Shown: positions 27,701 through 57,521 of the stretch, piece by piece
How positions within the stretch are numbered: position 1 is the first letter of the stretch
Layout of the letters: the number at the start of each line of letters is the position of its first letter
Assembly (NCBI RefSeq): GCF_014639315.1
Contig: NZ_BMFY01000010.1
Coordinates: 62,001-126,000, forward strand
Direction: 5' to 3'
Source of the DNA: Sediminivirga luteola
GTDB lineage: Bacteria > Actinomycetota > Actinomycetes > Actinomycetales > Brevibacteriaceae
DNA: 64,000 nucleotides
Translations under genes and position numbers: made by a program
The notes under the pieces: model-generated
What the model was told of the DNA's origin: nothing
What the model saw: only the letters and a program-made list of their open reading frames with translations
The model's database searches: none

Positions 27701-27842
27701 GTGCAGCAGGTTCCGCTGAGGGAGCGCCGCCTTGCCCGGCCTCGACATCGTCCCAGCTGACGGCGGCGGCCGGACCGGTCAGGACCAGCACTATCGCCAC
27801 AACGGCGGCAAGCAGGCGGCGGAAGGTCACGATCTTCTTCAC
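24777..27842 (-). CDS. Large LPRTG-anchored surface protein with repeats
   Basis: A 1021-residue secreted protein: signal peptide (LAAVVAIVLVLTGPAAAVSW), then two related beta-rich units, each with EIPVTATAPEGVDL- or VTVTAPEGLGL-like segments and a LTLDGPEVLIWG- or LTLDGPSAADWG-like segment. A region around VDIPEVEGVEYRIGEDVVTGT follows, then about 135 residues of Pro/Thr/Glu repeats (near 706-843), a module beginning PGDPIVVTGL and a second disordered stretch. The cell-wall signal is LPRTG (990-994), a hydrophobic helix and RRRR. GTG 27842 follows GGGGAC and gives a normal signal peptide. It is probably an adhesin or stalk protein linked to peptidoglycan by a sortase. Confidence 0.85.
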   Translation of the reverse strand: MKKIVTFRRLLAAVVAIVLVLTGPAAAVSWDDVEAGQGGAPSAEPAAQPRSGSPASSGSPGPDEAMAPELILPSFTARQPAAQPRGLEVTSEPEADAAELELTIPGVTEWLVGEDIEIPVTATAPEGVDLGGVVVELWEAWTISYPEDGAPVFVDGYPLPAGDPVTAVLNGDGKATLLLPAGVLEAAFGLDPEAYPLLTMLFAGAPDGGDIATDLAVRVIDQGHRGLADAASNVTALTVAPAEPALTLDGPEVLIWGEDLTLTAELGLPEGWFSADDLREILDFMRGGGFPVPDFPAGEITLYAADDTGFERPFASVDLAEADALSTELVIPAASLADSTEYEFVAVFSGTRYFTEAVSAGHQAAFDLVDVSVAIPETLSWYPFDELEVPVTVTAPEGLGLEGVVVELWEEAHTDLSGYENDERRLELIDGTPVTAELNADGTATFVLSNQVGDGPPPAELAAALIMASGGDVWPLTARIPASAAHGVAASRSNVLEVRPGPAEPGLTLDGPSAADWGQDVELTAEVLLPEEWPEEGTLRELLNEMAEFFDVNPDFPGGQLNLHEASDAGWNNPIAVVDLAETDSLTAELTVPADRLSAGENRFVVVYSGTSYFTQAQSQTVTVTVTLTEATPVEPGFDEETGVLDIPEVEGVEYRIGEDVVTGTVIVEHGKSVTVSAVALPGYALAEDAAAEWTFTRPEEGDGGGEPTPEPTTEPVPEPTTPAPTEPVPTTPAPTEPAPTGPTTEPTEPEPTGPTTPTEPGPTTAPTEPGPTTPTPTTPTPTTPAPTTAPTEPGPTGPTEPGPTTVPTEPEPTTPAPTEPEPTQPEPTEPEPTEPEPTQPGGGVSVEVESGRPGDPIVVTGLAEYEGQTVSAELHSDPVDLGTAIVQDGTAVFAVPEDIAPGNHTLFVYSATGEVLYEGRFEVLAETGAPAPTEPAPAEPTPGEPAPGGPGPDEAETSEPAPGAPGGSGSAGSSGAGGAGGAGGPAGPLPRTGGELAALALGLILLAFGGGTLYLARRRR
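25314..25725 (-). repeat. Pro/Thr/Glu-coding degenerate tandem repeats
   Basis: A run of degenerate 9-30-base units coding for variations of EPTTPAPTEP and TPTTPTP. On the plus strand it reads as recurring GGCTCGGTCGG and GTCGGCGTGGTCGG words. It forms the extended, probably glycosylated stalk of the surface protein. Such tracts change length by slippage or recombination. Confidence 0.8.
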
Positions 27843-27974
27843 AGTGGCGTCCCCGAAAGTGGTGCGAGCTGAATGAGTGTGGCGGGCACACGACGTACGA
27901 GGTCCTGGCCAGCCTTTACTCACCTCATCACGAGGTTTCGTTCAGGAACAGGGTGGTAGATACTCAAAAACGGT

Positions 27975-28934: not shown

Positions 28935-31034
28935 CTAGCGGCGCCGCCGGGAAAGGTGCAGCGCGCTGCCGCCTAGGGCGATCAGGGCCAGGCCTGCCCC
29001 CAAGGCGGCGAACTCGCCACCGGTCCGCGGGAGTGAACCGCCGGACCCGCCACCGGACCCGTCGTCACCCGAACCACCGGGCCCGGGCGGGCTCGTGTCG
29101 TCCGCGACCTCGAAGGAGGCGCTCAGGTCCGTCCCGTCCACCGTGACGGTGTAGCTCCCGATGTAGATGCTCGGATCCGAGGGGCTGTCGCCGTAGATGA
29201 CGAACGCGGCCGTGCCGTCCTCGTCCACCGGTACCGTCTGCGAAAGACCACGTACGGCCTCCCCGTCCGGAGCGATCGTGAACGTCACGGTCTCACCGGC
29301 GGTGAACCCGGTCGCAGTCGCCGTCACGCCTCGGTCCGGGTCGACGAACGCCTCCGGGGTGATCCGTTCCGGATCCACGCTCAGCTGCTGCTCGACCTGG
29401 GCGGCCAGCACCTCGAAAGGCCCTTCGTAGAGGACGTCGCCGGCGGCGTCGTACACGAACAGGGTGTGGTTACCCGGAGCGACCTCCGGGACGGTGAATC
29501 CGGCCGTGCCGTCCTGGACCAGGGCGGTCCCCAGGTCGACCGGATCCGAGTGCAGTTCGGCCGAAACCGTCTGCCCCTCGTATTCCTGCAGACCGGTGAC
29601 CACGATCGGATCACCGGGCTTCCCGGACACCTGCTCGACACTCACCTCATCGCCGGGCTGGGTGGGTTCCGGCTCGGTCGGGCCGGGAGTCGTCGGCTCA
29701 GGCTCAGTGGGCTCCGGGCTCGTCGGCTCCGGCTCGGTCGGGGCCGGAGTCGTCGGTTCTGGCTCCGTGGGTCCTGGAGTCGTGGGCTCCGGTTCCGTCG
29801 GCTCCGGGGTCGTCGGCTCCGGCTCGGTCGGCGTGCTCGTCGGTTCTGGCTCCGTCGGTTCCGGCTCAGTGGGCGCCGGGGTCGTGGGCTCCGGTTCCGT
29901 CGGCTCGGTCGTCGGCTCCGGGGTGGGTTCCGTGGTCGGCGGAGTCGTCGGTTCGGTGGTCGGCGGGGTGGTCGGCTCGGTCGTGGGTTCCGGCGTCGGC
30001 TCCGGATCCGGGTCCGGGTCCGGCAGCACCGTCAGCGTCGCCGAGTCCTGCTCGCCGGCGTCCGAGCGCATCTGGAGCTCGTACGTCCCCGGCGCCAGAG
30101 GGCCGCGGTACTCGTGCGAGAACCCGCCCGGGACGGACCCGCCATCGGCATCGCCAGTGGAGTACTGGCCCTGTTCCTGGCCGTCGATGAGCAGCGTCAC
30201 GGTGCTGCCAGGCGTGAAGCATTCGCCCAGCAGCGCCACGCCGTCCTCACGCAGCTCAGACGCGGTCAGTTCCGCCGGAAGGAGCCAGAAGCTCGGCGGC
30301 TGGCAGATCGGCTCCGGAGTGGGCTCAGTCGTCGGCTCAGGCGTCGTCGGCTCCGGGGTGGGCTCAGTCGTCGGTTCAGTGGTCGGCTCCGGCGTCGTCG
30401 GCTCAGTCGTCGGCTCCGGCGTCGTGGGCTCAGTCGTCGGCTCCGGAGTGGTGGGTTCCGGGGTCGTCGGCTCAGGCGTCGTGGGCTCGGTGGTCGGCTC
30501 CGGAGTGGTGGGTTCCGGGGTCGTCGGCTCAGGCGTCGTGGGCTCGGGCTCCGTCGGCTCCGGCTGCACCTCGGTCTGCGCCGTAAAGGTAAACCGGTAA
30601 CCCTGGCAGGAAAGCTCAGGCATGGAAGCGTACCCCTCGCCCGAGGCGGTGCCATCGGCGTTCACCACGACGCCCTCGAGCACGTACCGGACGGTCGATC
30701 CGCCCTCGCCGAAGTCCCAACTCAGATCGAACGGCTCCCCGGCGGTCACCTGCGTAGCGGGCATGCCAGCCCACTGCATGGGGGTCGGGAAGAGCCCGCA
30801 CTGGACATAGCTCTCGGTCTCGAACCCGGACATCACGCCGGCCTCGACCTGGAAACTCACCGTGGCGCCCGTATACGCCGTGCTCGTACCGGTATAGGTT
30901 CCCGAAGGCGGCGCTGCTTGCGCCGCGCTGGCGGGAAGACCGGCGGAGAACAGACTCAGCAGCAGCGCCAGCAGAGCGCCGATGATTCCTGCCGGCAGAA
31001 GTGCACGGCTCCGGGTGGCGGGGTCGTCGGGCAT
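28935..31034 (-). CDS. LPRTG-anchored surface protein with Pro/Thr/Glu repeats
   Basis: A 699-residue secreted protein. Signal peptide (IIGALLALLLSLFSAGLPASAAQA); a 75-residue N-terminal domain (SGTYTGTSTAYTGATVSFQV, FPTPMQWAG); Pro/Thr/Glu repeats; a domain QPPSFWLLPAELTASEL with GSTVTLLIDGQEQG; a second repeat tract; then a PGDPIVVTGL module nearly identical to that of the neighbouring surface protein, and a VDPERITPEAFVDPDRGVTATA module related to the third surface protein in this window. The end is LPRTG (668-672), a membrane helix and RRRR. ATG 31034 follows GAGAGGAA. It heads a minus-strand set with the lipoprotein and the larger surface protein. Confidence 0.87.
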   Translation of the reverse strand: MPDDPATRSRALLPAGIIGALLALLLSLFSAGLPASAAQAAPPSGTYTGTSTAYTGATVSFQVEAGVMSGFETESYVQCGLFPTPMQWAGMPATQVTAGEPFDLSWDFGEGGSTVRYVLEGVVVNADGTASGEGYASMPELSCQGYRFTFTAQTEVQPEPTEPEPTTPEPTTPEPTTPEPTTEPTTPEPTTPEPTTPEPTTEPTTPEPTTEPTTPEPTTEPTTEPTPEPTTPEPTTEPTPEPICQPPSFWLLPAELTASELREDGVALLGECFTPGSTVTLLIDGQEQGQYSTGDADGGSVPGGFSHEYRGPLAPGTYELQMRSDAGEQDSATLTVLPDPDPDPEPTPEPTTEPTTPPTTEPTTPPTTEPTPEPTTEPTEPEPTTPAPTEPEPTEPEPTSTPTEPEPTTPEPTEPEPTTPGPTEPEPTTPAPTEPEPTSPEPTEPEPTTPGPTEPEPTQPGDEVSVEQVSGKPGDPIVVTGLQEYEGQTVSAELHSDPVDLGTALVQDGTAGFTVPEVAPGNHTLFVYDAAGDVLYEGPFEVLAAQVEQQLSVDPERITPEAFVDPDRGVTATATGFTAGETVTFTIAPDGEAVRGLSQTVPVDEDGTAAFVIYGDSPSDPSIYIGSYTVTVDGTDLSASFEVADDTSPPGPGGSGDDGSGGGSGGSLPRTGGEFAALGAGLALIALGGSALHLSRRRR
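29650..30005 (-). repeat. Pro/Thr/Glu-coding tandem repeats, first tract
   Basis: Degenerate units coding TEPEPTTP and TTPPTTEP. On the plus strand GTCGTCGGCTCCGG-like words recur. It forms the outer of two stalk segments of the surface protein. Confidence 0.8.
30301..30570 (-). repeat. Pro/Thr/Glu-coding tandem repeats, second tract
   Basis: Very regular units coding EPTTPEPT and EPTTEPTT, with DNA repeats such as GGCTCAGTCGTCGGCTCCGG; nearly identical blocks recur around 30430 and 30490. It forms the inner stalk segment of the surface protein, with high potential for length variation. Confidence 0.8.
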
Positions 31035-31151
31035 ATGAGTTCCTCTCGGGGATGCGCCTGTCTTACGCGCTGTCAGGGAGCACTCGCGCGCCTCCCCGGC
31101 GGGAAGACGCGCCACATTCCACATCCTCCGCCTCGGAGCCCTGGGAGGGAT

Positions 31152-31183
31152 ACCCGTATTCCTACGGGTTTCATCACGAAACC
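31152..31183. promoter_or_regulatory. Two overlapping inverted repeats between divergent genes
   Basis: ACCCGTA-TTCC-TACGGGT (31152-31169) and GGTTTC-ATCAC-GAAACC (31167-31183) are perfect inverted repeats sharing the bases GGT, so the two stems exclude one another. They lie between the LPRTG surface-protein gene (minus) and the LuxR-type regulator gene (plus), about 140 bases from each. They may be operator sites of the regulator or alternative structures in a leader. Confidence 0.45.
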
Positions 31184-31320
31184 GACGGTGGCCGGTGTTT
31201 GGGACAGAAAGCTGATATACCGTAATCATCCTGTTCACAGCCGGATATATCGGCGCACGAATGCCGCCTCCCGAGCCGGGCGGCGCTGAGGTGAACTCGA
31301 ACCGGGAAAGGGACCGCATT

Positions 31321-33825
31321 GTGCTGATCGGACGTGACGAGGACGTCTCCCGGCTTCAGGCGGCCATCACCGGGGGCCGGCTGGCGCCGGGGGCCCTGCG
31401 GCTCGTCCGCCTCGAAGGGCCGATCGGTGCGGGGAAGACGGCGCTGCTCTCCCGCGTCCTGGCCGAGGCGCCGGGCCGCGTCCTGGCCACGCGCGCGGAC
31501 CGGATGTTCTCCTCCGGACCGCTTGCCGCCGCCCGCGTCCTGCTGGAGTCCCTGCTGCACGAGTCCCTTGCCCGCCTGGTCGAGGGGGCCGGGCCGGCCC
31601 AGCTCGCCCGCGCCTGCATTCAGGCGCTCGGCGAGGAACCCGTGACCATAGCCGTCGATGATGCGCAGTGGCTGGACCCCTCCTCAGAGGAGTTCTTCGC
31701 GGCCTTCCTCACCGCGCCGGCGCGAGCACCCCGCGTCCTCGTCCTGGCGCACCGTCCGCACCAGGAGCCCGCCGCGGTGCTCAGAGCGGCACGCCGTGCC
31801 GGCGCCAGCGATGAGCACCTGGTCGTGGGCGCGCTGCCGGAGACCGCCATCCGGACCCTGGCAGAGGGCCTGCCACCGCACCAAGCGCGGGCCGTGGCGG
31901 CCTCGGCGGACGGCAATCCCCTGTTCGCGCACGTCCTCATCTCGGCCTTTCAACGGCACCCCGAGGCGCGGGACGTCAGCGACGTCCTGGACCTGGCCCG
32001 GCTTGGACCCGGCGCCGGGCTGGCCGCCGCGGTCGCCGACGACATCCGTTCCCTGCCGGACTCCGCGCGCACCGTGCTGCGCGGCATCGCCGTCCTGGGC
32101 CGCCTCGATCTGCCCGGGCTGCGCGCCGTGACCGGACTGGATCCCGATCCGGTACGCGCGGCGCTGGAGGTGCTGCAACGGCACGGACTCCTGGCCGTGA
32201 CCAGCACCGAGGCCCTCCATCCGGTGATCCGGGCCGGCGTCTACCAGGACATCCCGCGGGACTGGGCGGTGCAGGCGCACCGCATCGCCGCGGCGCAGCC
32301 CGGCCTCGACCCGCTCGAACGCGCCGAGCACCTCGCGTTCCTCCGCGAACACGCCAGCGATGACGAGGTGGGCGAACTGGTGACGGCAGCCCGGCAGGCG
32401 CTCGGCGCGGCACCGGCCACAGCGCGCCGCTGGCTTGAGCCCGCATCGGCGCACCGGCGGTGCCCGGCCCTGGAGCTGGTCCTGGCACGAGCCGAGATGA
32501 TGTGCGGGGACACCGCGCGTGCGATCGAACGGCTACGTTCCCTGGCCACACGTTCGGAGCACGCCGGCGAAGCGCGCGTGCTGCTGGCCCACGGGCTGCG
32601 GATGAGCGGCAAGCCGGACGAGGCGAGTGCGCTGCTGCACGATCCCGGCGACGAGAACGTCGACCCGGCGCTGCTGATGGAACGGGTCGCCCTGGCCTCG
32701 CTGGTGGAAGAGCCCGTGCCGGAGGATCTGCTGGTGCGCCTGGCGGCGGAGGGCCGCCGGTACACCCTCGCGGCGGCGGCCTTCCGGACCATCTCGCTGC
32801 TGGTGTCCGGCCGGGTGCCGCTGGCCAGGGAGGCCTTCACCGGCGTGCTCGAGGGGCTGCACGAGCTGCCGCCGGAGGAACTGCGCGATGTCCTGGACGC
32901 GGCGGCGGCCGCGGTGTGGTCCGGGTACATCCTGGATCACACGCCGGCGGCGATCCGGCTCGGCACCCGGGCCCTGCGCACCGCCCGCCACTTCGGCCGC
33001 ACCACGCTGCTGGCGAATCTGGGCGCGGCCCTGGCCTTCGCGCTCATCCCGGCCGGCCGGCTGGAGGACGCCGATGCCGCCGCGGAGCAGGCGGTCGAGG
33101 ACGCCGGGCGGGCCGGCACGGCCGATCTGATCGGGATGGCACGCACCGCGCAGGCGCTCTCGGCGCTGTGGCGGCGCGACGAGTCCCTCATGCGGCTGCG
33201 CCTGGAGCAGCTGCGCGAGGCGCCGCTGCCGTCCGTGCTGTGGTGGCGGCGCACCGTGCTGTCCTCGCGTGCCCGCACGGCCGCCCTCGTGGGGGAGGCC
33301 GAACCCTATGCGTTCACGCCCGGGCCGGCCGATGGCACGGCGCCGCTGCGCTACGCGGATGCCGCGACGATCTCCTTCCTGGCCGGAGATCCGGCCACCG
33401 GCGTCCGGCTGGCACAGGAGGGCCTGGCCCTGGCGGATGCCGGCGGCCTGGAGAGCCAGGGCGCTCTGCTGCGCACCACGCTGGGAGAGGCGCTGCTGCG
33501 CGGCGGGCAGGATCCGGCCACCGCCCGGTCGCTGCTGGCGCAGGCCAGAGAGAGCTACGAGCAGCTCGCGATGCCCTACCCGGCCAGGCGTGCCGCCGCG
33601 GGCCAGGAGGAGGCCGAACGCCTGGTGCGGGACTCCGCGGCCGGCAGGCTGACGCCGAGGGAGCTCGAGGTCGCCCGGCTCGTCGCCGAGGGATTGAGCA
33701 ATCAGGACATCGCTGAACGTCTGGTGATCAGCCGGCGCACCGCCGAAGAGCACGTCTCGAAGGTGCTGCGCAAGCTCGGTGCCAGCTCACGCGTGGCCGT
33801 GGCCAGGATGCTGCCGCAGCCCTGA
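31321..33825 (+). CDS. Large ATP-binding LuxR-family regulator (LAL type)
   Basis: An 834-residue regulator of the LAL/MalT-like STAND class. Residues 3-12 read IGRDEDVSRL. The Walker A is GPIGAGKT (33-40) and the Walker B area is TIAVDDAQWLD (about 109-119). A middle helical region with TPR-like repeats senses the signal. The C-terminal LuxR helix-turn-helix (about 776-830) reads LTPRELEVARLVAEGLSNQDIAERLVIS. GTG 31321 is chosen since GGGAAAGGGA lies seven bases upstream and the family usually starts just before GRD; earlier in-frame starts at 31261 and 31291 are weaker. It is divergent from the surface-protein genes and could regulate them or itself. Confidence 0.9.
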   Translation: MLIGRDEDVSRLQAAITGGRLAPGALRLVRLEGPIGAGKTALLSRVLAEAPGRVLATRADRMFSSGPLAAARVLLESLLHESLARLVEGAGPAQLARACIQALGEEPVTIAVDDAQWLDPSSEEFFAAFLTAPARAPRVLVLAHRPHQEPAAVLRAARRAGASDEHLVVGALPETAIRTLAEGLPPHQARAVAASADGNPLFAHVLISAFQRHPEARDVSDVLDLARLGPGAGLAAAVADDIRSLPDSARTVLRGIAVLGRLDLPGLRAVTGLDPDPVRAALEVLQRHGLLAVTSTEALHPVIRAGVYQDIPRDWAVQAHRIAAAQPGLDPLERAEHLAFLREHASDDEVGELVTAARQALGAAPATARRWLEPASAHRRCPALELVLARAEMMCGDTARAIERLRSLATRSEHAGEARVLLAHGLRMSGKPDEASALLHDPGDENVDPALLMERVALASLVEEPVPEDLLVRLAAEGRRYTLAAAAFRTISLLVSGRVPLAREAFTGVLEGLHELPPEELRDVLDAAAAAVWSGYILDHTPAAIRLGTRALRTARHFGRTTLLANLGAALAFALIPAGRLEDADAAAEQAVEDAGRAGTADLIGMARTAQALSALWRRDESLMRLRLEQLREAPLPSVLWWRRTVLSSRARTAALVGEAEPYAFTPGPADGTAPLRYADAATISFLAGDPATGVRLAQEGLALADAGGLESQGALLRTTLGEALLRGGQDPATARSLLAQARESYEQLAMPYPARRAAAGQEEAERLVRDSAAGRLTPRELEVARLVAEGLSNQDIAERLVISRRTAEEHVSKVLRKLGASSRVAVARMLPQP

Positions 33826-33846: not shown

Positions 33847-34578
33847 TCAGCCGGACTGCTCGCCCAGGAAACCCCGCAACAGGCTCTCGGTGCCCGCGGC
33901 GTGCTCGGCGGCGACCGCCTCGGCGGTGGCCGCATCGCCGGCGATGACGGCCTCGACCAACTGCCGGTGCTGCTCCTGACTGTGCTCCAGGTTGACCTGC
34001 AGGAGCGGGATCATGTCGAGCAGATGGTTGATCCGGGTGCGGACATCGGCGACGGCCCGCAGCAGGCTCGGTATACCGGCGCACTCGGCCACCAGCAGAT
34101 GCAGGCGGGAATCAAGCCGGCGGTAGGAGTGCTCATCGGCGCCGGCGGAGTCCGCGAGCGCCGACCGCAGCGCCTCGACCTGGGCCGGGCTCAGCGCGGC
34201 CGCGGCCGCGCGCCCTGCCGCGGCGGTGTCCACGATCATGCGGAACTGGAGGGCGTCGTCGAGTTCCCCGGGATCGGGCTTCTCCACCCGGACGGCGATG
34301 CCCTCAGGTTCCTCCTGCGGCTCGCAGACGAAAGCGCCCCCGTACCTGCCCCGGCGAACCTCCAGGTAACCGGCGCGCTGAAGCTCGGCGATCACCTCGC
34401 GGAGGGTGCTCCGGGAGACGCCCAGCTGCTCGGCGAGTTCCCGCTCGCTGGGCAGCCGCTCGCCAACCGGTACCGAGCCGAGCCGGATGAGCTGGAGCAT
34501 CCGCGCCATCGTCTCCTCGAAGGCGTTGCCGGACCGCACCGGCCCCAGCAGCGGGCCGACGCCGGGTACCTCGCTCAT
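33847..34578 (-). CDS. GntR-family regulator, FadR subfamily (FCD domain)
   Basis: A 243-residue regulator. The N-terminal winged helix reads LPSERELAEQLGVSRSTLREVIAELQRAGYLEVRRGRYGGAFV (about 43-85). The C-terminal all-helical FCD domain has LQFRMIVDTAAAGRAA, a metal-site-like D...H pattern in RRLDSRLHLLVAEC, and SQEQHRQLVEAVIAGD with the late conserved His. ATG 34578 follows GGGAGG at six bases. It is divergent from the amine permease gene and probably represses the gamma-glutamylation genes until a catabolic intermediate binds. The repeated operator block at two promoters is its likely target. Confidence 0.9.
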   Translation of the reverse strand: MSEVPGVGPLLGPVRSGNAFEETMARMLQLIRLGSVPVGERLPSERELAEQLGVSRSTLREVIAELQRAGYLEVRRGRYGGAFVCEPQEEPEGIAVRVEKPDPGELDDALQFRMIVDTAAAGRAAAAALSPAQVEALRSALADSAGADEHSYRRLDSRLHLLVAECAGIPSLLRAVADVRTRINHLLDMIPLLQVNLEHSQEQHRQLVEAVIAGDAATAEAVAAEHAAGTESLLRGFLGEQSG

Positions 34579-34822: not shown

Positions 34823-34886
34823 TTGACCACCGATGAGACGTGGATTACATTAAAGCCAGCCTTTGGCCCGGAAACAGACCTTTGGC
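34823..34886 (+). promoter_or_regulatory. Promoter and operator of the amine permease gene
   Basis: A near-consensus promoter: -35 TTGACC (34823-34828), 17-base spacer, -10 TACATT (34846-34851). The spacer contains TGAGACGTGGAT. Ten bases after the -10 lies TTTGGCCCGGAAACAGACC (34862-34880), followed directly by another TTTGGC (34881-34886). The same arrangement, 15 of 19 bases identical in the last element, precedes the glutamine-synthetase-like gene. The element sits around the transcription start, a good place for a repressor such as the divergent GntR protein. Confidence 0.75.
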
Positions 34887-34986
34887 TCCCGAATATGCCC
34901 ACGGACGATGCCGGCACACCGGTGCGGGCACGGCATGCGCCGCCCGCACCGACCGCACGGGATCTCCCATACCAACGGCGGTATCC

Positions 34987-36435
34987 ATGGCATTCAAGAA
35001 AGCCCTCAGCAAGAACGTCGACTACACCGACGTCGACTCCAGCTACCTGGCGAACCGGCAGCTCAAGAAGGGTGCGGCCGGGTGGGTCCTGCTCGCCGGC
35101 CTCGGCGTCGCCTACGTCATCTCCGGTGATTTCTCCGGCTGGAACCTGGGCCTGGCCGAAGGCGGCTGGGGCGGCCTGCTGATCGCCTTCCTGCTCATGG
35201 GCCTGATGTACACCTGCATGGTGTTCGGCCTGGCGGAGCTCTCCTCCACGCTGCCGACCGCCGGCGCCGGATACGGCTTCGCCCGGCGGGCACTGGGCCC
35301 GCTGGGCGGATTCGCCACCGGCATGGCGATCCTGATCGAGTACGCCGTGGCACCGGCGGCCATCGCCACCTTCATCGGCGGTTACGTGCGGGCCCTCGGC
35401 CTGCCGGAGTCCGTGCCGATCTGGGTCGTCTACCTGCTGTGCTACGCGCTCTTCGTGGGCATCCATCTGTGGGGCGTCGGCGAGGCGCTCAAGGTCATGT
35501 TCGTCATCACAGCGGTCGCGGTCGTCGCGCTGCTCGCCTTCGTGATCGGCACCGTGCCTCATTTCGATGCCGCCAATCTGTTCAACATCGAGCCGACCCA
35601 GGCCGCCGGCGCCTCGGAGTTCCTGCCGTTCGGCTTCTCCGGGGCGGTGGCCGCGCTGGTCTTCGGCATCTGGTTCTTCCTCGCCGTCGAGGGCGTGCCG
35701 CTGGCCGCGGAGGAGTCCGCCAACCCCAAGCGGGACATGCCCCGGGGCATCATCACCGCCATGCTGATCCTGCTGTTCTTCGGCGCCAGCGTCCTGCTCC
35801 TGGTGCCCGGCACGGCCGGCGCCGATGCGATGGGTGTCTCGGACAATCCGCTGCCGGAGGCGTTGCGGCACATCTACGGCGCCGACTCCGCACTGGCGAC
35901 CTTCGTGAACTGGGCGGGCCTGTTCGGGCTGGTCGCGAGCTTCTTCTCGATCGTCTTCGCCTACTCCCGGCAGTTGTTCGCGCTCTCCCGGGCCGGGTAC
36001 CTGCCGACGGTGCTCTCCCTGACGAGCAAGCGGAAGACGCCGTACCTGGCGCTCATCGTGCCGGGCACCATCGGCTTCGCCCTGGCGGCGTGGCTGCAGG
36101 ACGGCGGCCTGCTGATCAACATCGCGGTCTTCGGGGCCACCGTCTCCTATGTGCTGCTGAACCTCTCGCACATCATGCTGCGCCTGCGCGAGCCGGACCT
36201 GCCCCGCGGCTACCGTACGCCGGGCGGCATCGTGACCACCTCCATCGCGCTGGTCCTGGCCGCCGTGGCGGTGGTGGCGACGTTCTTCGTGGATGTCCTG
36301 GCTGCGGGCATCACCGCGATCATCTTCCTGCTGGCCATCGCGTACTTCTGGTTCCACTCTCGGCACCGGCTCATCGCCCGGGCGCCGGAGGAGGAGTTCG
36401 CCGCGCTGGCGAAGGCAGAGTCCGAACTCCAGTAG
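34987..36435 (+). CDS. APC-superfamily amino-acid/amine permease (ethanolamine-permease type)
   Basis: A 482-residue permease with about twelve helices. VDSSYLANRQLKKGAAGWVLLAGLGVAYVISGDFSGWN near the start is the pattern of ethanolamine permeases (EAT family). AEESANPKRDMPRGI in the middle is the conserved APC cytoplasmic loop. The likely substrate is a small amine (ethanolamine, a polyamine or similar), because the next genes encode gamma-glutamylation enzymes. ATG 34987 gives a typical family N-terminus; the ribosome-binding site is weak. An earlier in-frame ATG would overlap the promoter -10 and operator and is rejected. Confidence 0.88.
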   Translation: MAFKKALSKNVDYTDVDSSYLANRQLKKGAAGWVLLAGLGVAYVISGDFSGWNLGLAEGGWGGLLIAFLLMGLMYTCMVFGLAELSSTLPTAGAGYGFARRALGPLGGFATGMAILIEYAVAPAAIATFIGGYVRALGLPESVPIWVVYLLCYALFVGIHLWGVGEALKVMFVITAVAVVALLAFVIGTVPHFDAANLFNIEPTQAAGASEFLPFGFSGAVAALVFGIWFFLAVEGVPLAAEESANPKRDMPRGIITAMLILLFFGASVLLLVPGTAGADAMGVSDNPLPEALRHIYGADSALATFVNWAGLFGLVASFFSIVFAYSRQLFALSRAGYLPTVLSLTSKRKTPYLALIVPGTIGFALAAWLQDGGLLINIAVFGATVSYVLLNLSHIMLRLREPDLPRGYRTPGGIVTTSIALVLAAVAVVATFFVDVLAAGITAIIFLLAIAYFWFHSRHRLIARAPEEEFAALAKAESELQ

Positions 36436-36509
36436 CGCCGGCGTGCACGGCGCAGCACGAGGCGCAGCCAGCCGCCCGCCGGCCCTCACGGGGTCGGCGG
36501 GCGGTCGCC

Positions 36510-36569
36510 TTGACGGAAAAATGAGACCTGAATTACATTGGACATCAGTATTTGGCGTGAAATCAGACC
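36510..36569 (+). promoter_or_regulatory. Promoter and operator of the glutamine-synthetase-like gene
   Basis: -35 TTGACG (36510-36515), 18-base spacer, -10 TACATT (36534-36539), then TTTGGCGTGAAATCAGACC (36551-36569). The spacer contains ATGAGACCTGAAT, almost the same as the spacer of the permease promoter. The match extends over about 50 bases in two otherwise unrelated intergenic regions 1.7 kb apart, so it is under selection or recently copied. It is the likely binding site of the cluster's GntR regulator. Confidence 0.75.
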
Positions 36570-36690
36570 ATTAAACGTTGTCCTGGAGCGGCCCTCTCGC
36601 GGGCACGCAGTGCTCCGCCCATAGCCCAACGCCACCAGCGGCGTCACCGACAGCTCCATCGACAGTCCATCGACAAGGAAGCGAATCGCC

Positions 36691-38070
36691 ATGACCACTG
36701 CGTCCGATCCGAGCACCCGCGGCATGCTGACCCTGGAGGATCTGCACGCTCTGGCGGCCAGCGGCGAGATCGACACCGTCATCGTCGCGATCACCGATGT
36801 CCAGGGCAGACTGCAGGGCAAGCTCCTGGGTGTCGACTTCTTCCTCAACGAGGTCGCATCGCACGGCGCGGAGGGTTGCAACTACCTGCTCGCGGTCGAC
36901 GTGGAGATGAACACCGTCGACGGCTATGCCATGTCCTCCTGGGAGAGCGGCTATGGCGATATGGTCTTCCAGCCGGACATGGCCACCCTGCGCCGCATCC
37001 CGTGGCTGGAGGGCACCGCGCTGGTGGTGTGCGACGTCCTCTGGCTCGACGGCACCCCGGTCGTCCAGTCCCCGCGCCAGATCCTCAAGCGCCAGCAGGA
37101 CCGGCTGGCCGCGCGGGAACTCGAGGCGTTCTCCGGGACGGAGCTGGAGTTCATCGCCTTCGACACCAGCTATGAGGATGCCCAGGACAGCGGATACCGC
37201 GAACTGGTGCCGGCCAACCGCTACAACGTCGACTACTCGCTGCTCGGCTCCACCCGGGTCGAGCCCCTCATGCGCCGGATCCGCAACGCCATGTCCGGGT
37301 CGGGCTTCTACGTCGAGGGCACCAAGGGAGAGTGCAACTTCGGCCAGCACGAACTCACCTTCCGGTTCAGGGACGCCCTGGGCACCTGCGACAACCACGC
37401 CATCTACAAATACGGCGCCAAGGCCATCGCCGCGCAGGAGGGCAAGGCCATCACGTTCATGGCCAAGTACGACGAGCGCGAGGGCAACTCCTGCCACATC
37501 CACTTGAGCCTGCGCGGCACCGACGGCAGCACGGTCATGGCGGGCGAGCGCGACCACGGCTTCTCCGAGCTCATGGAGCAGTTCATCGCCGGCGTCCTGG
37601 CGGCACTGCCCGAACTGACCTACTTCTTCGCCCCGAACATCAACTCCTACAAGCGTTTCGCCAAGGGCAGCTTCGCCCCGACGGCGATCGCCTGGGGCTT
37701 CGACAACCGCACCTGCGCCGTCCGCGTCGTGGGTCACGGGCCCAGCCTGCGTGCGGAGATCCGCGTCGGCGGCGCGGACCTCAACCCCTACCTGGCGACC
37801 GCCGCCATCATCGCCGGCGGCCTGCACGGCATCGAGAACGCGCTGGAGTGCCCGCCCCTGGTGGCCGGCAACGCCTACGAGGCGGCGGCGGACCAGCTGC
37901 CGACCACCCTGGCCGAAGCCGCCGCGCGGCTGGATCGCTCCGAGCTGGCTCGCGCGGCCTTCGGCGACGATGTGGTGGACCACTATGTCAACGCCGCCCG
38001 CGTGGAGCTGGAGGCGTTCGAGAAGACCGTCACGGACTGGGAGCGCGTGCGTGGCTTCGAACGTCTCTGA
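36691..38070 (+). CDS. Glutamine-synthetase-like gamma-glutamyl-amine ligase
   Basis: A 459-residue type I glutamine-synthetase fold. GTELEFIAFDTSYEDAQ is the beta-Grasp/catalytic junction. The metal and ATP sites are seen in GECNFGQHELTFRF, NSCHIHLSL and NRTCAVRVVG. FAPNINSYKRFAKGSFAPTAIAWG is the family's glutamate/ATP loop. Regulatory adenylylation features of housekeeping GlnA are absent. Together with the permease, hydrolase and aldehyde dehydrogenase, it is probably a PuuA- or GlnA3/GlnA4-like enzyme that attaches glutamate to an amine as the first catabolic step. The amine (polyamine or ethanolamine) is not fixed by sequence. AAGGAAG precedes the start. Confidence 0.9.
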   Translation: MTTASDPSTRGMLTLEDLHALAASGEIDTVIVAITDVQGRLQGKLLGVDFFLNEVASHGAEGCNYLLAVDVEMNTVDGYAMSSWESGYGDMVFQPDMATLRRIPWLEGTALVVCDVLWLDGTPVVQSPRQILKRQQDRLAARELEAFSGTELEFIAFDTSYEDAQDSGYRELVPANRYNVDYSLLGSTRVEPLMRRIRNAMSGSGFYVEGTKGECNFGQHELTFRFRDALGTCDNHAIYKYGAKAIAAQEGKAITFMAKYDEREGNSCHIHLSLRGTDGSTVMAGERDHGFSELMEQFIAGVLAALPELTYFFAPNINSYKRFAKGSFAPTAIAWGFDNRTCAVRVVGHGPSLRAEIRVGGADLNPYLATAAIIAGGLHGIENALECPPLVAGNAYEAAADQLPTTLAEAAARLDRSELARAAFGDDVVDHYVNAARVELEAFEKTVTDWERVRGFERL

Positions 38071-39109
38071 ACCGGACACGCCCGGTGCCACGGTGAGGCG
38101 GCCGCGGATCGGCATCACGACCTATCAGCAGCCGGCACGCTGGGGCGTCTGGGATGAGGAGGCCGCGCTGCTGTCCTCGACCTACCTGGACTGCGTCGTC
38201 GCCGCCGGAGGCACCCCGCTCCTGCTACCGCCGACCGGGAGCGATCCGACCCTCGTGGAGGACCTGGACGGCCTGGTCATCGCCGGCGGCTCCGATGTGG
38301 GGGCGGAGCGCTACGGCGCCGAGCCGCATCCGCTCACCCAGCCGCAGTCCCACCGCGACGATCACGATCTCGCCCTGGCCGGCGCCGCGCTGAAGGCCGG
38401 TCTGCCGCTGTTCGCGATCTGCCGCGGCCTGCAGGTGGTCAACACGCTCCTCGGCGGCACCCTGATCCAGCATCTGCCCGATGTCCTGGACACCACCGCG
38501 TACCAGCCGGCGCCGGGGGTGTTCGGCCGCATGCGCGTGCAGACCGAGCCCGGCAGCATGGCGGCGGCGCTGCTGGGCGCCGAGGCCGAGGTGTCGGTCT
38601 ACCACCACCAGGCGGTCGACCGCGTCGGCCGCGGCCTGCGGGTGACGGCGCGCACCGCCGACGGCGTCATCCAGGCCCTGGAACTGGACCCGGACCAGGA
38701 CGACGTCGCGGCCATACCGGATGCCGGGGGACCTGCGACGGACGCGAGGCACGCCTCCGGCGGGCACGCCTCGACCGGCCCCGCGGCCACCGCCGCCGGG
38801 CACCCGGCCCCCGGGCACGCCTCCACCGCCGCCGGGCCGGAAAAGCCCGGCTGGATGCTGGCCGTGCAGTGGCATCCGGAGCGGACCGTCCAGGACCTGC
38901 GCCTCTTCGCCGCATTCGTCGCCGCGGCGCAGGCGCACCGGGACCGTCGCCATGCGGGCACGCCGGACCCATCGAACTCAGCCGGCTCAGCGGCCACGCC
39001 CCCGGCTCCAGCGGACACGATCAGCACCTCAGCACCGCCGGATGCCGGCGGGCAGGAACGTCCCCGCCGCGACACGATGCGGCGGCACCAGGCGCACGAA
39101 AGGAGCTAA
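38051..39109 (+). CDS. Class I amidotransferase-type gamma-glutamyl hydrolase (PuuD-like)
   Basis: A 352-residue protein of the peptidase C26 family. RIGITTYQQPARWGVW opens the domain, GLVIAGGSDVGAERYG is typical of PuuD, the nucleophile is Cys in FAICRGLQVVN, and the His/Glu pair is in AVQWHPE. It should release glutamate from a gamma-glutamyl intermediate made by the ligase. Oddly, about 40 residues of Ala/Gly/His-rich sequence (PATDARHASGGHAST and on) are inserted just before the WHPE strand, and the C-terminus has a further disordered tail. GTG 38051, inside the end of the ligase gene (20-base overlap), is chosen because GGGAG precedes it. Confidence 0.87.
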   Translation: MASNVSEPDTPGATVRRPRIGITTYQQPARWGVWDEEAALLSSTYLDCVVAAGGTPLLLPPTGSDPTLVEDLDGLVIAGGSDVGAERYGAEPHPLTQPQSHRDDHDLALAGAALKAGLPLFAICRGLQVVNTLLGGTLIQHLPDVLDTTAYQPAPGVFGRMRVQTEPGSMAAALLGAEAEVSVYHHQAVDRVGRGLRVTARTADGVIQALELDPDQDDVAAIPDAGGPATDARHASGGHASTGPAATAAGHPAPGHASTAAGPEKPGWMLAVQWHPERTVQDLRLFAAFVAAAQAHRDRRHAGTPDPSNSAGSAATPPAPADTISTSAPPDAGGQERPRRDTMRRHQAHERS

Positions 39110-39115
39110 GGCACC

Positions 39116-40480
39116 ATGAGCACTGTGTACGAGGTCGTCAATCCGGCCACCGAGGAGATCGTGCGCCAGGTGGAACTGGCCGATGAAGCCGCCACCAATG
39201 CGGCCATCGAGCGCGCCCACCGCGCCTATGAGTCATGGCGGGACGTCGCACCGGCGGACCGGGCGCGGCTGCTGCGCCGCTTCGCCGATGCGGTGGACGC
39301 GGACGTGGAGAACCTGGCGCAGCTGGAGGTCGCCAACGCCGGGCACACCATCGGCAACGCCCGCTGGGAGGCCGGTAACGTCCGCGACGTGCTGGAGTAC
39401 TACGCGGCGGTGCCCGAGCGGCTCTTCGGCCGGCAGATCCCGGTCGATGGCGGTGTCACCGTCACGTACCAGGAACCGCTGGGCGTGGTCGGGGTGATCG
39501 TGCCGTGGAACTTCCCGATGCCGATCGCCGGCTGGGGCTTCGCACCGGCGCTGGCGGCCGGCAACACGGTCGTGCTCAAGCCCGCCGAGGTCACGCCGCT
39601 GACGGCGATGCGCCTGGGCGAGCTTGCGCTGGAGGCGGGCCTTCCGGAGGGTGTGCTGACCATCCTGCCCGGCAAGGGCTCGGTGGTGGGCAGCCGGTTC
39701 GTGACGCATCCGCTGGTACGGAAGGTGGTCTTCACCGGCTCGACCGAGGTGGGCAAGCGGATCATGGCCGGCTGCGCCGATCAGGTCAAACAGGTGACGC
39801 TGGAACTCGGCGGGAAGAACTCGAACATCGTCTTCGCCGATGCCGACCTCGCCGAGGCCGCCGCCAACGCTCCCGGCGGCGTGTTCGACAACTCGGGACA
39901 GGACTGCTGCTCCCGCTCCCGTCTCCTGGTGCAGGCCAGCGTGTACGAGGAGTTCATGGCCGAGTTCGAGAAGGCCGTCACGGCGTTCCGCGTGGCCGAT
40001 CCGGCCGATGAGTCGGCGCAGATGGGTCCCCTGATCACCGCGGCGCACCGCGAATCGGTGGCCCGCTACGTCGACGCCGGCGAGGTCGCCTTCCGCGGCC
40101 GGGCTCCGGAAGGACCGGGCTTCTGGTTCCCGCCGACGGTGCTCACCCCCGGTTCGACCTCCACGCCCGATTTCACCGAGGAGATCTTCGGCCCCGTCGT
40201 CTCCGCGGTGCCCTTCGAGACGGAGGAGGACGCGATCCGGATCGCCAATGACACCGAGTACGGCCTCTCCGGTTCCATCTGGACCAACGACCTGGACCGG
40301 GCGCTACGGGTCTCCCGCGCGGTGCAGGCCGGCAACCTCTCGGTGAACTCGCATTCCTCGGTGCGCTACAGCACGCCGTTCGGCGGATTCAAGCAGTCCG
40401 GCCTCGGCCGGGAGCTCGGGCCCGACGCCGTGGAGGCCTTCACCGAGACCAAGACGGTGTTCTACGCCACCAGGCGCTGA
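39116..40480 (+). CDS. NAD(P)-dependent aldehyde dehydrogenase
   Basis: A 454-residue aldehyde dehydrogenase. The Rossmann part has VIVPWNFPMPIAGWGFAPALAAGN and FTGSTEVGKRI. The general base Glu is in LELGGKNSN (near residue 229) and the catalytic Cys in NSGQDCCSRSRL (near 263). EEIFGPVVSAVPF is the usual later motif. In this cluster it would oxidise a gamma-glutamylamino aldehyde or other aminoaldehyde, as PuuC does. AAAGGAG stands just before the ATG, six bases after the preceding stop, so it is co-transcribed with the hydrolase and ligase genes. Confidence 0.93.
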   Translation: MSTVYEVVNPATEEIVRQVELADEAATNAAIERAHRAYESWRDVAPADRARLLRRFADAVDADVENLAQLEVANAGHTIGNARWEAGNVRDVLEYYAAVPERLFGRQIPVDGGVTVTYQEPLGVVGVIVPWNFPMPIAGWGFAPALAAGNTVVLKPAEVTPLTAMRLGELALEAGLPEGVLTILPGKGSVVGSRFVTHPLVRKVVFTGSTEVGKRIMAGCADQVKQVTLELGGKNSNIVFADADLAEAAANAPGGVFDNSGQDCCSRSRLLVQASVYEEFMAEFEKAVTAFRVADPADESAQMGPLITAAHRESVARYVDAGEVAFRGRAPEGPGFWFPPTVLTPGSTSTPDFTEEIFGPVVSAVPFETEEDAIRIANDTEYGLSGSIWTNDLDRALRVSRAVQAGNLSVNSHSSVRYSTPFGGFKQSGLGRELGPDAVEAFTETKTVFYATRR

Positions 40481-40599: not shown

Positions 40600-41382
40600 A
40601 TGGCAAAGGAAATCGTCTCCAACCGGCTGGCCGGGAAGGTCGCCGTCATCACCGGCGGCGGTTCGGGCATCGGCAAGGCCAGCGCGCAGCGGATGGCCGC
40701 CGAGGGCGCCCGGATCGTCATCGGCGATCTGGACCCGGCAGCGGGCCAGGCCGTCGCCGCCGAGCTCGACGGCACCTTCGTCGAGGTCAACGTCGCCGAT
40801 GAGGAGCAGGTGAAGAACCTCTTCTCCACCGCCGCGGAGGTGTACGGGCAGGTGGACATCGCCTTCAACAACGCGGGCATCTCTCCCGCCGACGACGCCT
40901 CCATCACCGAGACCGGCCTGGATGCCTGGCGCCGGGTGCAGGAGGTCAATCTGACTTCGGTGTACCTGTGCTCCAAGTACGCCCTGGAGCACATGCGTCC
41001 GCGGAAGTCCGGTTCCATCATCAACACGGCGTCGTTCGTGGCGCTCATGGGCGCGGCGACCTCGCAGATCTCGTACTCCGCCTCGAAGGGCGGGGTGCTG
41101 GCGATGTCGCGGGAGCTCGGCGTGGAGTTCGCCAAGGAGGGCATCCGCGTGAACGCGCTGTGCCCGGGGCCGGTGAACACGCCGCTGCTGCAGGAGCTCT
41201 TCGCCAAGAACCCGGAAGAGGCGCAGCGTCGTCTGGTGCATGTGCCGATGGGCCGGTTCGCCGAGGCGGAGGAGCTGGCGGCGGCAGTGGCGTTCCTGGC
41301 CAGCGACGATGCCTCCTTCATCACCGCCAGCACGTTCCTCGTCGACGGCGGCATCACCTCGGCCTATGTGACGCCGCTCTGA
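40600..41382 (+). CDS. Short-chain dehydrogenase/reductase
   Basis: A 260-residue classical SDR. Cofactor motif TGGGSGIG (18-25); NNAG near 90; catalytic Ser145 (NTASF), Tyr159 and Lys163 in YSASKGG; CPGPVNTP follows. Asp43 after the second strand (IGDLD) favours NAD. A good GGAAAGG site precedes the ATG. A 119-base gap separates it from the aldehyde dehydrogenase gene, but it is on the same strand and ends at the cluster's terminator, so it may oxidise an alcohol intermediate of the same pathway. The substrate is unknown. Confidence 0.9.
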   Translation: MAKEIVSNRLAGKVAVITGGGSGIGKASAQRMAAEGARIVIGDLDPAAGQAVAAELDGTFVEVNVADEEQVKNLFSTAAEVYGQVDIAFNNAGISPADDASITETGLDAWRRVQEVNLTSVYLCSKYALEHMRPRKSGSIINTASFVALMGAATSQISYSASKGGVLAMSRELGVEFAKEGIRVNALCPGPVNTPLLQELFAKNPEEAQRRLVHVPMGRFAEAEELAAAVAFLASDDASFITASTFLVDGGITSAYVTPL

Positions 41383-41674: not shown

Positions 41675-42952
41675 TCAGAGCGCGGCCGGATCGGCGCTGA
41701 CCTTGCTGCGGCGCATGGTCAGCAGCACGGTGGCGGTACCGCCGAGCAGCAGCGCCAGGCCGGCGCCCAGGCCGGCGAGCTCGGCACCGGTGCGCGGCAG
41801 GCTGCTGCCACCGCCGGAGCCGTTCTCCTCCTCGCCCGAGCCGGGCTGACCCGGGTCGCTCGTGGCGGAAGCGACCGTGAAGGAGCCGGTCAGCGGCTCG
41901 GCGCCGTTGGCCTCGTCCTCGGCGCCGGTGACCTCGACGTCGTACTGGCCGATGTAGACCTCGGGCTGGGCGGCGTTGGCGCCGTAGACGCGGTAGACGA
42001 CCGTGCCGGTCTCATCGGCGACCTCGGTCAACTCGATGCCGGTGACGTTCTCCGGGCCCGCGACGACCTCGAGCGTGACGACCTCGCCCTCGGCGAAGCC
42101 TGTCGCGGTGATGGTGACGCCCTTCTCCTGGTCGACGAAGTCGGCGATGGAGACGGTCTCGGGATCGATCGCCAGGGCGCGCTCGGCCGGGGCCTCGCTC
42201 GGCTGGGTCGGCTCGGTGACCTCGTCGACGACCTCGAAGGTGGTCGAGACCGTGTCGATGACCTCGCCGTTGGCGAGGACGTCGAGGGAGGCGGTGATGG
42301 TCCCGGTCCACCCCTCGGGCAGTTCCGCGATGAAGAGGGTGGTGGCGCCGGTCTCATCCCCGCTGCCGCCGACCCCTTGGAACAGCTCGGTCAGATCCTC
42401 GTCCCCGGAGGTGAAGGAGACAGCGTCTACGGACTGACCCGGCTGCACACCGGAGTAGGTGAGCGCCACGCCGTCCTCGGCGAGGTCCTCGACGGTGTAC
42501 TGCGCCCGGTCCACCGAGAGCTCGACCTCGGAGACATCCGAGGCCTCTTCGGGCTGCACGGTGACGAAGGTGCCGACGCTGTGCTCGCGGCCCTCGGGGG
42601 TGAGGAACACGGCGGTCACGTTCAGGTTGCCGGTGTAGCCCTCGGACAGCTGACCCGTGTAGGTGCGCACATCGCCGTCGCCGGATTCCGTCAGCTCGAC
42701 GGCGGTGCCGTCCTCGGTGCTGAACTCAGTGCGCTCGAACGAGTAGCCTTCGGGGATGGTGAGCGTCAGCGTCAGGCCCTCGGTGGCCAGCGCCTCTGCC
42801 GTGATCTCCAGGGTGCTCAGCGAGACGTCCGGCCTCTGCTCCGTGGTCTCACTGGGAGAGGGCTCGGGGGCGGCGATCGCGGGGACTGCGACGGCTCCGG
42901 CGAAACCCGCGACGGCGATGGCGACGCCGGCGGGGAGAAGCGTTCTCTTCAT
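41675..42952 (-). CDS. LPRTG-anchored surface protein (425 aa)
   Basis: Signal peptide (LLPAGVAIAVAGFAGAVAVPAIAA), then at least three beta-rich repeats of about 90 residues. LSTLEITAEALATEGLTLTL and LSVDRAQYTVEDLAEDGVALTY are two starts of the same repeat, and LAIDPETVSIADFVDQEKGVTI starts a third type shared with another surface protein in this window. The end carries LPRTG (385-389), a hydrophobic helix and a basic MRRSK tail. AGGAAA lies upstream of the ATG. Unlike the other two it has no long Pro/Thr repeat. It is monocistronic, with a terminator hairpin behind it. Likely a wall-anchored structural or adhesive protein. Confidence 0.85.
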   Translation of the reverse strand: MKRTLLPAGVAIAVAGFAGAVAVPAIAAPEPSPSETTEQRPDVSLSTLEITAEALATEGLTLTLTIPEGYSFERTEFSTEDGTAVELTESGDGDVRTYTGQLSEGYTGNLNVTAVFLTPEGREHSVGTFVTVQPEEASDVSEVELSVDRAQYTVEDLAEDGVALTYSGVQPGQSVDAVSFTSGDEDLTELFQGVGGSGDETGATTLFIAELPEGWTGTITASLDVLANGEVIDTVSTTFEVVDEVTEPTQPSEAPAERALAIDPETVSIADFVDQEKGVTITATGFAEGEVVTLEVVAGPENVTGIELTEVADETGTVVYRVYGANAAQPEVYIGQYDVEVTGAEDEANGAEPLTGSFTVASATSDPGQPGSGEEENGSGGGSSLPRTGAELAGLGAGLALLLGGTATVLLTMRRSKVSADPAAL

Positions 42953-57182: not shown

Positions 57183-57203
57183 CATCTCTGACGACTTTCT
57201 ACG

Positions 57204-57276
57204 TGGAGGTAACGGGACTCGAACCCGTAACCCCCTGCTTGCAAAGCAGGTGCGCTACCAATTGCGCCATACCCCC
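57204..57276 (-). tRNA. tRNA-Ala (TGC)
   Basis: 73 bases. Acceptor stem GGGGGTA pairs with TACCTCC (one G-U), discriminator A. The anticodon loop CTTTGCAAG has anticodon TGC. The T arm has GGGTTCGAGTCCC. The 3' CCA is not encoded. Confidence 0.97.
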
Positions 57277-57298
57277 GTGGGTCCCGCCGGACAGCGGA

Positions 57299-57418
57299 TC
57301 AGATCTGATCCGTGGCTTGCGCCCAGCGCTCCTGGACCGCCTTCGTGTCGCGGCGGGCCTTGAGGAACACGGCCACTCCGATTCCCGTCAGCGTGACAGC
57401 TGCCAGCCATCGTTTCAT
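57299..57418 (-). CDS. DLW-39-family small peptide (39 aa)
   Basis: A 39-residue single-helix peptide: MKRWLAAVTLTGIGVAVFL as the membrane segment, then KARRDTKAVQERWAQATDQI. It matches the DLW-39 family of actinobacteria, tiny proteins encoded next to the tRNA-Ile/Ala genes and ending in a DLWAEATD-like motif. Here ERWAQATD replaces the name-giving DLW. GGAAGGGAG precedes the ATG. It lies between tRNA-Ile and tRNA-Ala on the same strand. No function is known for the family. Confidence 0.8.
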   Translation of the reverse strand: MKRWLAAVTLTGIGVAVFLKARRDTKAVQERWAQATDQI

Positions 57419-57447
57419 GGAAGCTCCCTTCCGACGATGGTCCCGCG

Positions 57448-57521
57448 TGGGCGTACCAGGACTTGAACCTGGGACCTTCACATTATCAGTGTGACGCTCT
57501 AACCGCCTGAGCTATACGCCC
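57448..57521 (-). tRNA. tRNA-Ile (GAT)
   Basis: 74 bases. Acceptor stem GGGCGTA pairs with TACGCCC, discriminator A. The anticodon stem-loop CACACTGATAATGTG has anticodon GAT. D and T arms are normal. CCA is not encoded. It follows the DUF3566 gene as in other actinobacterial origin regions. Confidence 0.97.

Follow-up and report, generated by a model that had tools for sequence, protein, structure and literature searches.

The window, by which we mean the whole 64,000-nucleotide stretch of Sediminivirga luteola DNA that was analysed, carries a gene cluster containing all five gene types expected for a gamma-glutamyl ethanolamine pathway (permease, synthetase, two dehydrogenases, hydrolase), with a regulator gene at its edge (Table 1). 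The regulator protein matches PF00392 at 61.6 bits and PF07729 at 58.2 bits, both above cut-off, which places it in the FadR subfamily. No NCBIfam model was matched at cut-off by the GlnA4-like ligase or, among the matches listed, by the aldehyde dehydrogenase. The substrate of the cluster is most likely ethanolamine, judged from the permease, which exceeds the TIGR00908 cut-off, and from operator-like sites that precede eutB outside such clusters in other genomes (see below). The preliminary description of this DNA had proposed an operator for a regulator of amine catabolism; both the operator and the amine setting find support, and the same two observations point to ethanolamine as the amine. 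Membrane lipids yield ethanolamine when they are degraded, and it serves widely as a source of carbon and nitrogen. Elsewhere in the window, a gene for a large LuxR-type ATPase regulator (31261-33825; PF13191, PF00196) adjoins the GntR gene, and three long proteins (24777-27923, 28935-31319, and 41675-42952, all on the minus strand) have LPRTG near the C-terminus, like sortase-anchored surface proteins, the first two also with TEP/TPEP-type repeats. Genes for tRNA-Ile and tRNA-Ala lie close by each other at 57203-57521 on the minus strand, probably in an rRNA spacer.

Table 1. Genes and predicted regulatory features of the probable ethanolamine cluster in the window.
Feature	Position	Strand	Basis
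FadR-type GntR regulator (GntR winged helix-turn-helix and FCD domain), taken as EpuRI ortholog	33847..34578	-	PF00392, PF07729; orthologs in class
-35 TTGACC, permease promoter (predicted)	34823..34828	+	TTGAC kept in relatives
TGAGA-N6-TTACA, possible CRP/GlxR-like box in spacer, overlaps -10	34834..34849	+	sequence, matrix
-10 TACATT, permease promoter (predicted)	34846..34851	+	sequence; kept in relatives
Operator 1 (predicted), imperfect dyad CTTTGGCCCGGAAACAGACCTTTG	34861..34884	+	matrix rank, co-occurrence in relatives
Ethanolamine permease (APC family)	34987..36435	+	TIGR00908 522 bits, cut-off 382
-35 TTGACG, ligase promoter (predicted)	36510..36515	+	sequence
TGAGA-N6-TTACA, second possible CRP/GlxR-like box	36522..36537	+	sequence, matrix
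-10 TACATT, ligase promoter (predicted)	36534..36539	+	sequence; kept in relatives
Operator 2 (predicted), imperfect dyad ATTTGGCGTGAAATCAGACCATTA	36550..36573	+	second best matrix place in window
GlnA4-like gamma-glutamyl ligase (glutamine synthetase family)	36691..38070	+	PF00120; gene order as Streptomyces glnA4
PuuD-like gamma-glutamyl hydrolase (peptidase C26)	38090..39109	+	PF07722
Aldehyde dehydrogenase	39116..40480	+	PF00171
Short-chain dehydrogenase (PRK06057)	40600..41382	+	NF004713 480 bits, cut-off 404

The predicted promoters of the permease and ligase genes resemble each other, with -35 to -10 spacers of 17 nt (permease, 34823-34851) and 18 nt (ligase, 36510-36539). The upstream pattern ATGAGACNTGNATTACATT is the same in both at 17 of 19 positions and the downstream pattern TTTGGCNNGNAANCAGACC at 15 of 19. 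With up to three mismatches, the two promoters are the sole places of ATGAGACNTGNATTACATT in the 64-kb window, where shuffles led us to expect 0.02; TTTGGCNNGNAANCAGACC on its own is weak, with 2 places in the window against 0.93 expected. Across the 3.86-Mb genome, each pattern has exactly two exact matches, which are the two promoters of the window, and when mismatches were allowed there were three further places for TTTGGCNNGNAANCAGACC (reversed control, 2) and one for ATGAGACNTGNATTACATT (reversed control, 1). Since both patterns were derived from the two window copies, these searches are circular, and matrices built from relatives only are the better test. A 21-nt matrix made from the promoter blocks of 16 relatives ranked the window promoters first and second in the window (scores 15.1 and 14.2). 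A 24-nt matrix for the downstream part, built from 17 sites of other Brevibacteriaceae with the window excluded, likewise placed the two window sites first and second (14.0 and 11.7), the next best place in the 64 kb scoring 3.2.

Several claims of the preliminary description can be judged at this point. Its two promoters with TTGACC or TTGACG, a spacer of 17-18 bases and TACATT are found at the coordinates in Table 1, as is the agreement of 15 of 19 positions in the downstream element, and the GntR/FadR gene is indeed divergent from the first promoter, its ATG lying 283 nt from the first dyad. The genome-wide search agrees with it as well: the element is not scattered, and exact matches in its own genome fall only at the two cluster promoters. 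The ~50-base block that the promoters were said to share is real as a likeness and not as a single unit, being made up of a core promoter, whose spacer perhaps holds a CRP/GlxR-like box, and a separate dyad downstream. Similarly, the 19-base element exists; its extent was misjudged, and the 19 bases are part of an imperfect 24-nt dyad.

Comparing relatives brought out the common form of this dyad, CAAWGG-N12-CCWTTG (24 nt), examples being CAATGGTCTGAATGTGATCCATTG in Brevibacterium sp. CCUG 69071 (L031) and CAATGGTTCTCCGCAATACCTTATG, which lies between regulator and ligase in a Streptomyces-like genome (L184). The window dyads have a well-kept right arm and a poorly kept left arm (TTTGGC), and window site 1 scores 11 of 14 positions against the consensus, below our threshold of 12. 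In Brevibacteriaceae promoters, the dyad starts 9 or 10 nt past the -10 hexamer; in other clades it lies upstream of a start codon, often no more than 150 nt away. It stays with the ethanolamine genes irrespective of the regulator gene's place (divergent, downstream, or more distant). A second kind of ligase cluster was observed in the same family (group 2, L144-L152), with ligases 56-58% identical, its own FadR gene downstream, and variant dyads, for example AAATGGTTCGGTGGCATACCTTAA; these clusters are perhaps a paralogous system for another amine.

The spacer of the upstream block may hold a site of its own. The genome encodes two CRP-family proteins, one of them close to the GlxR chains 4byy and 4cyd of the PDB. 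When 16 distinct promoters from relatives are compared, conservation is seen in the columns of ATGTGNNNNNNNATTACATT (T in 16, G in 14, T in 15, and G in 12 of 16), while complete motifs are fewer than the columns suggest: TGTG in 10, TGTGA in 7, and TTACA in 13. Seven of the 16 have TGTGA-N6-TTACA in the spacer, one base off the GlxR consensus TGTGA-N6-TCACA given for Corynebacterium glutamicum (PMC7999487). Seven perfect GlxR boxes were found in the genome and none of the reversed pattern; six of the seven are intergenic, with genes called by third-position GC. The spacer box is not kept in Arthrobacter-like loci. Because TTACATT doubles as the -10, binding of a protein at that place would be more likely to impede transcription than to promote it. 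That the promoter spacer holds a degenerate GlxR/CRP box is a tentative reading of the upstream block, plausible and somewhat short of probable.

Regarding the regulator, the preliminary description did not recognise it as described, a point that has to be withdrawn: on the evidence of gene order and of published primers, used in place of the full sco1614 sequence, we take it to be orthologous to EpuRI (SCO1614), whose role as a repressor was published in 2019. In all ten f26/g39 loci, which appear to be Streptomyces (as f11/g24 appear to be mycobacteria-like), the regulator gene is divergent from the ligase gene, with the aldehyde and short-chain dehydrogenase genes next and the hydrolase gene on the other side; four of the ten also have the permease. 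This order matches the one published for Streptomyces, where the regulator and glnA4 genes diverge and genes for an aldehyde dehydrogenase and a short-chain dehydrogenase are also present. Of the published sco1614 primers, the two internal ones fit the regulator gene in each of these ten loci, with 0-3 mismatches; the fit of the two end primers is poorer, with 2-5 mismatches and in some cases a place outside the regulator gene. The regulator orthologs of the Streptomyces-like loci are 51-54% identical to the window protein. In Streptomyces coelicolor, glnA4 is reported to be repressed by EpuRI (deletion, RT-PCR), which also shifted the promoters of glnA4 and of epuRI itself (PMC6529630, PMC8998196), and PMC8998196 lists eight shifted promoters in all, several outside the ethanolamine genes. 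Among 86 aligned rows (the window protein twice, duplicates included), none departs from R46, R56, T58, and R60 in the winged helix, and Asp156, His160, His204, and His226 are present in 85. Such residues of FCD domains hold a metal.

The relation between dyad and regulator was evaluated at 130 loci: 80 found by the ligase in named genomes, 30 by the ligase in the window's family (including the window cluster), and 20 drawn from 99 genomes with the regulator. Removal of three duplicates (L126, L129, L141) left 127; five loci with an upstream region that is short or truncated at the edge of a contig (L025, L045, L051, L069, L197) were kept and counted as scored, and two from genomes with only 40%-identical relatives of the regulator (L068, L074) were counted as lacking it. 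The regulator search in some large genomes scored no more than 69 of the first-look candidates, and tight gene masks were used in the counts so that sites near start codons (for example L012 and L028) were visible. The regulator lay in the locus in 87 cases, elsewhere in the genome in 25, and was not found in 15. Counted at a minimum of 12 matching positions out of 14, the dyad was present at the cluster in 106/112 loci with the regulator and 1/15 without, compared to 8/112 and 2/15 for the reversed pattern. At 13 or more positions, these counts were 92/112 and 1/15, with 0/127 for the reversed control. The Fisher p of 3.6e-13 for this co-occurrence is uncorrected for kinship, and it is optimistic because the regulator-free loci form a small, related set (five Rubrobacter-type, five Pseudonocardia), with eight of the 15 coming from metagenome-assembled genomes, where absence is less sure. 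The regulator-bearing loci below threshold are L025, L065, L069, L147, L197, and the window (site 1, 11 positions); L087, the sole dyad-bearing locus without the regulator, is from a metagenome-assembled genome.

As the dyad pattern was written after some of the loci had been inspected, the test was repeated with a matrix from Brevibacteriaceae only, a locus being counted when at most one of 40 single-base shuffles reached its score. Leaving out 19 loci of the training clade, among them L135 (neither regulator nor dyad), the dyad was found in 91/94 loci with the regulator (window included) and 1/14 without. The training sites had been chosen with the same consensus, so a slight circularity remains in these figures. 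In both counts (106/112 and 91/94), then, the element is present upstream in relatives that share the cluster and the regulator.

Exact dyads were also counted across whole genomes. They occur in 27 of the 39 regulator-bearing genomes, leaving 12 that have none, and in 0 of 19 that lack the regulator, a set with a smaller mean genome size in which the whole cluster may be missing. Of 29 exact places, 26 are at the cluster, counting the G034 contig with regulator and permease, and the reversed pattern has four places across the 58 genomes. Among 394 genomes of the class, the exact dyad was observed in 45/99 with the regulator (reversed control, 13/99) and 38/295 without (reversed control, 37/295), i.e., at chance level where the regulator is missing. 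Eight off-cluster places, among the matches listed, were inspected. In G441 (L218), G356 (L223), and G411 (L224), the off-cluster dyad is followed by a second permease gene and then eutB, and in G395 (L225) it lies directly upstream of eutB; all four genomes carry the regulator. The eutB gene was identified by Pfam in G441 and in the other three by tblastn to the G441 gene (77, 80, and 83%). No ethanolamine link was seen at the off-cluster dyads of G340, G387, and G398, of the eight inspected, G387 being a genome without the regulator at E 1e-45. That a motif taken from gamma-glutamylation clusters retrieved genes of the other ethanolamine pathway is, in our view, the most persuasive result, and it suggests that one repressor may control both pathways, eutB and gamma-glutamylation. 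In a Streptomyces-like genome (G232, L220, position 2018), a phospholipase-C-type reading frame (PF04185, PF05506) has an exact dyad 22 nt ahead of it; this single case could link lipid breakdown and ethanolamine use.

Taken together, co-occurrence and genome specificity give strong computational support to the operator candidate that the preliminary description assigned to the neighbouring regulator, and we consider it highly likely that the dyad is the predicted operator of this EpuRI-type GntR/FadR repressor. Speaking against it are the 10-nt GT-AC distance, the weak left arms of the window dyads, the regulator-bearing genomes that have no exact dyad, and the shifted S. coelicolor promoters outside the ethanolamine genes. 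Three other explanations deserve weighing. Another protein, such as a global nitrogen regulator, could bind the dyad, leaving the GntR gene a bystander in the same clusters. The GT-AC distance of the dyad is unlike that of published FadR-subfamily sites, and growth of Mycobacterium smegmatis on ethanolamine is reported as GlnR-dependent in PMC4222082, both of which would fit. However, a global regulator should have many sites, whereas the exact dyads of the 39 genomes are nearly confined to the cluster, and it is this confinement that speaks against a global regulator, GlnR, AmtR, and other sigma factors having been considered. Moreover, 14 of the 15 loci without a GntR ortholog also lack the dyad, group-2 and Streptomyces-like clusters keep it despite other gene orders, and GlnR is reported not to bind the promoters of Streptomyces glnA-like genes. 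We therefore rate this explanation as improbable.

Even less probable, in our assessment, are two readings of the promoter pair itself. If both blocks formed one composite promoter for an unusual sigma factor, with no repressor site, the joint conservation of TTGAC, spacer, and TACATT with the dyad that is seen in Brevibacteriaceae would be expected; yet Kribbella, Streptomyces-like, and Pseudonocardiaceae loci, inspected by eye, have the dyad without the TACATT block, and the dyad is symmetric, as expected of a dimer site, so that we give this reading very little credence. The ligase promoter might also be a recent copy of the permease promoter, their likeness reflecting shared descent only. 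In its favour, TGAGA and TTTGGC occur in both window copies and are absent from the other listed Brevibacteriaceae permease promoters, and among 23 rows of Brevibacteriaceae ligase upstream regions (duplicates and cut contigs included), such a promoter is found in the window only. Against it, the copies are 68% identical to one another, and the closest promoters of relatives come nearer to them (71 and 73%), which does not indicate a recent duplication, and the motifs are kept where the filler is not; a recent copy is thus hardly to be expected.

Starting from the computed promoter anatomy, dyad, conservation, co-occurrence, and genome specificity, we infer a mechanism for the EpuRI-type repressor, in which binding, blocking, the ligand, the action of GlxR, and the start sites are predictions. 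The repressor would bind both downstream dyads and so control ethanolamine uptake and gamma-glutamylation. Given that the dyad starts 9-10 nt past the -10, it would extend from about +4 to about +27, so that a dimer bound to it is expected to occlude the start site and to block RNA polymerase there; the position of the dyad upstream of start codons in other clades also fits repression. When ethanolamine enters, a compound of the pathway, perhaps an acid held by the FCD-domain metal (Asp156, His160, His204, His226), may release the repressor, allowing transcription of the permease gene and of the ligase, hydrolase, and dehydrogenase genes. Ethanolamine would then be converted to gamma-glutamylethanolamide, to gamma-glutamylglycine, and finally to glycine and glutamate. 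The -35/-10 block, maybe with its degraded GlxR (cAMP-CRP type) box, could add carbon-source control.

The freely accessible article texts that were searched yielded no published EpuRI operator sequence, so that the EpuRI regulon has not been readable from genomes. For 106 of the clusters studied, the dyad supplies a site that can be tested; it also indicates eutB genes as further targets and suggests a DNA-binding geometry of FadR-type proteins beyond the usual spacing. Very probably, on these sequence comparisons, the dyad is a conserved operator through which a known repressor acts; its spacing is unusual, and the ethanolamine regulon that it suggests is wider than in the literature covered. 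We are inclined, with more reserve, to a broader proposal: that a FadR-type repressor whose dyad is wide (GG-N12-CC, GT-N10-AC) and does not follow the spacing usual among surveyed FadR sites would be the common ethanolamine regulator of Actinomycetes, governing the gamma-glutamylation cluster and, in some mycobacteria-like genomes, unlinked ethanolamine ammonia-lyase genes.

Among known systems, FadR-subfamily operators are described in PMC4494728 as palindromes of the form TKGT/ACMA, with GT and AC 2-3 nt apart in most of the groups surveyed there. The dyad resembles them in its TGG/CCA-type arms and in its FCD-domain regulator, and it differs in being GT-N10-AC, with 10 nt in place of 2-3 nt. 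The binding geometry would accordingly have to differ from the FadR norm, perhaps with helices in different grooves or with two dimers. Compared with the C. glutamicum GlxR box (PMC7999487), the window boxes agree at 8 of 10 positions, deviate at two, and overlap the -10. The Puu pathway of Escherichia coli, as covered in PMC9397018, shares amine gamma-glutamylation under repressor control and has a different regulator, PuuR; the window cluster also has a short-chain dehydrogenase, which would fit oxidation of the ethanolamine alcohol group. Common to the window and the EpuRI system itself is a repressor linked to a glnA4-type ligase and to the same pathway genes (PMC6529630, PMC8998196); the window differs in having one predicted site each at the permease and ligase promoters and perhaps a GlxR-like box.
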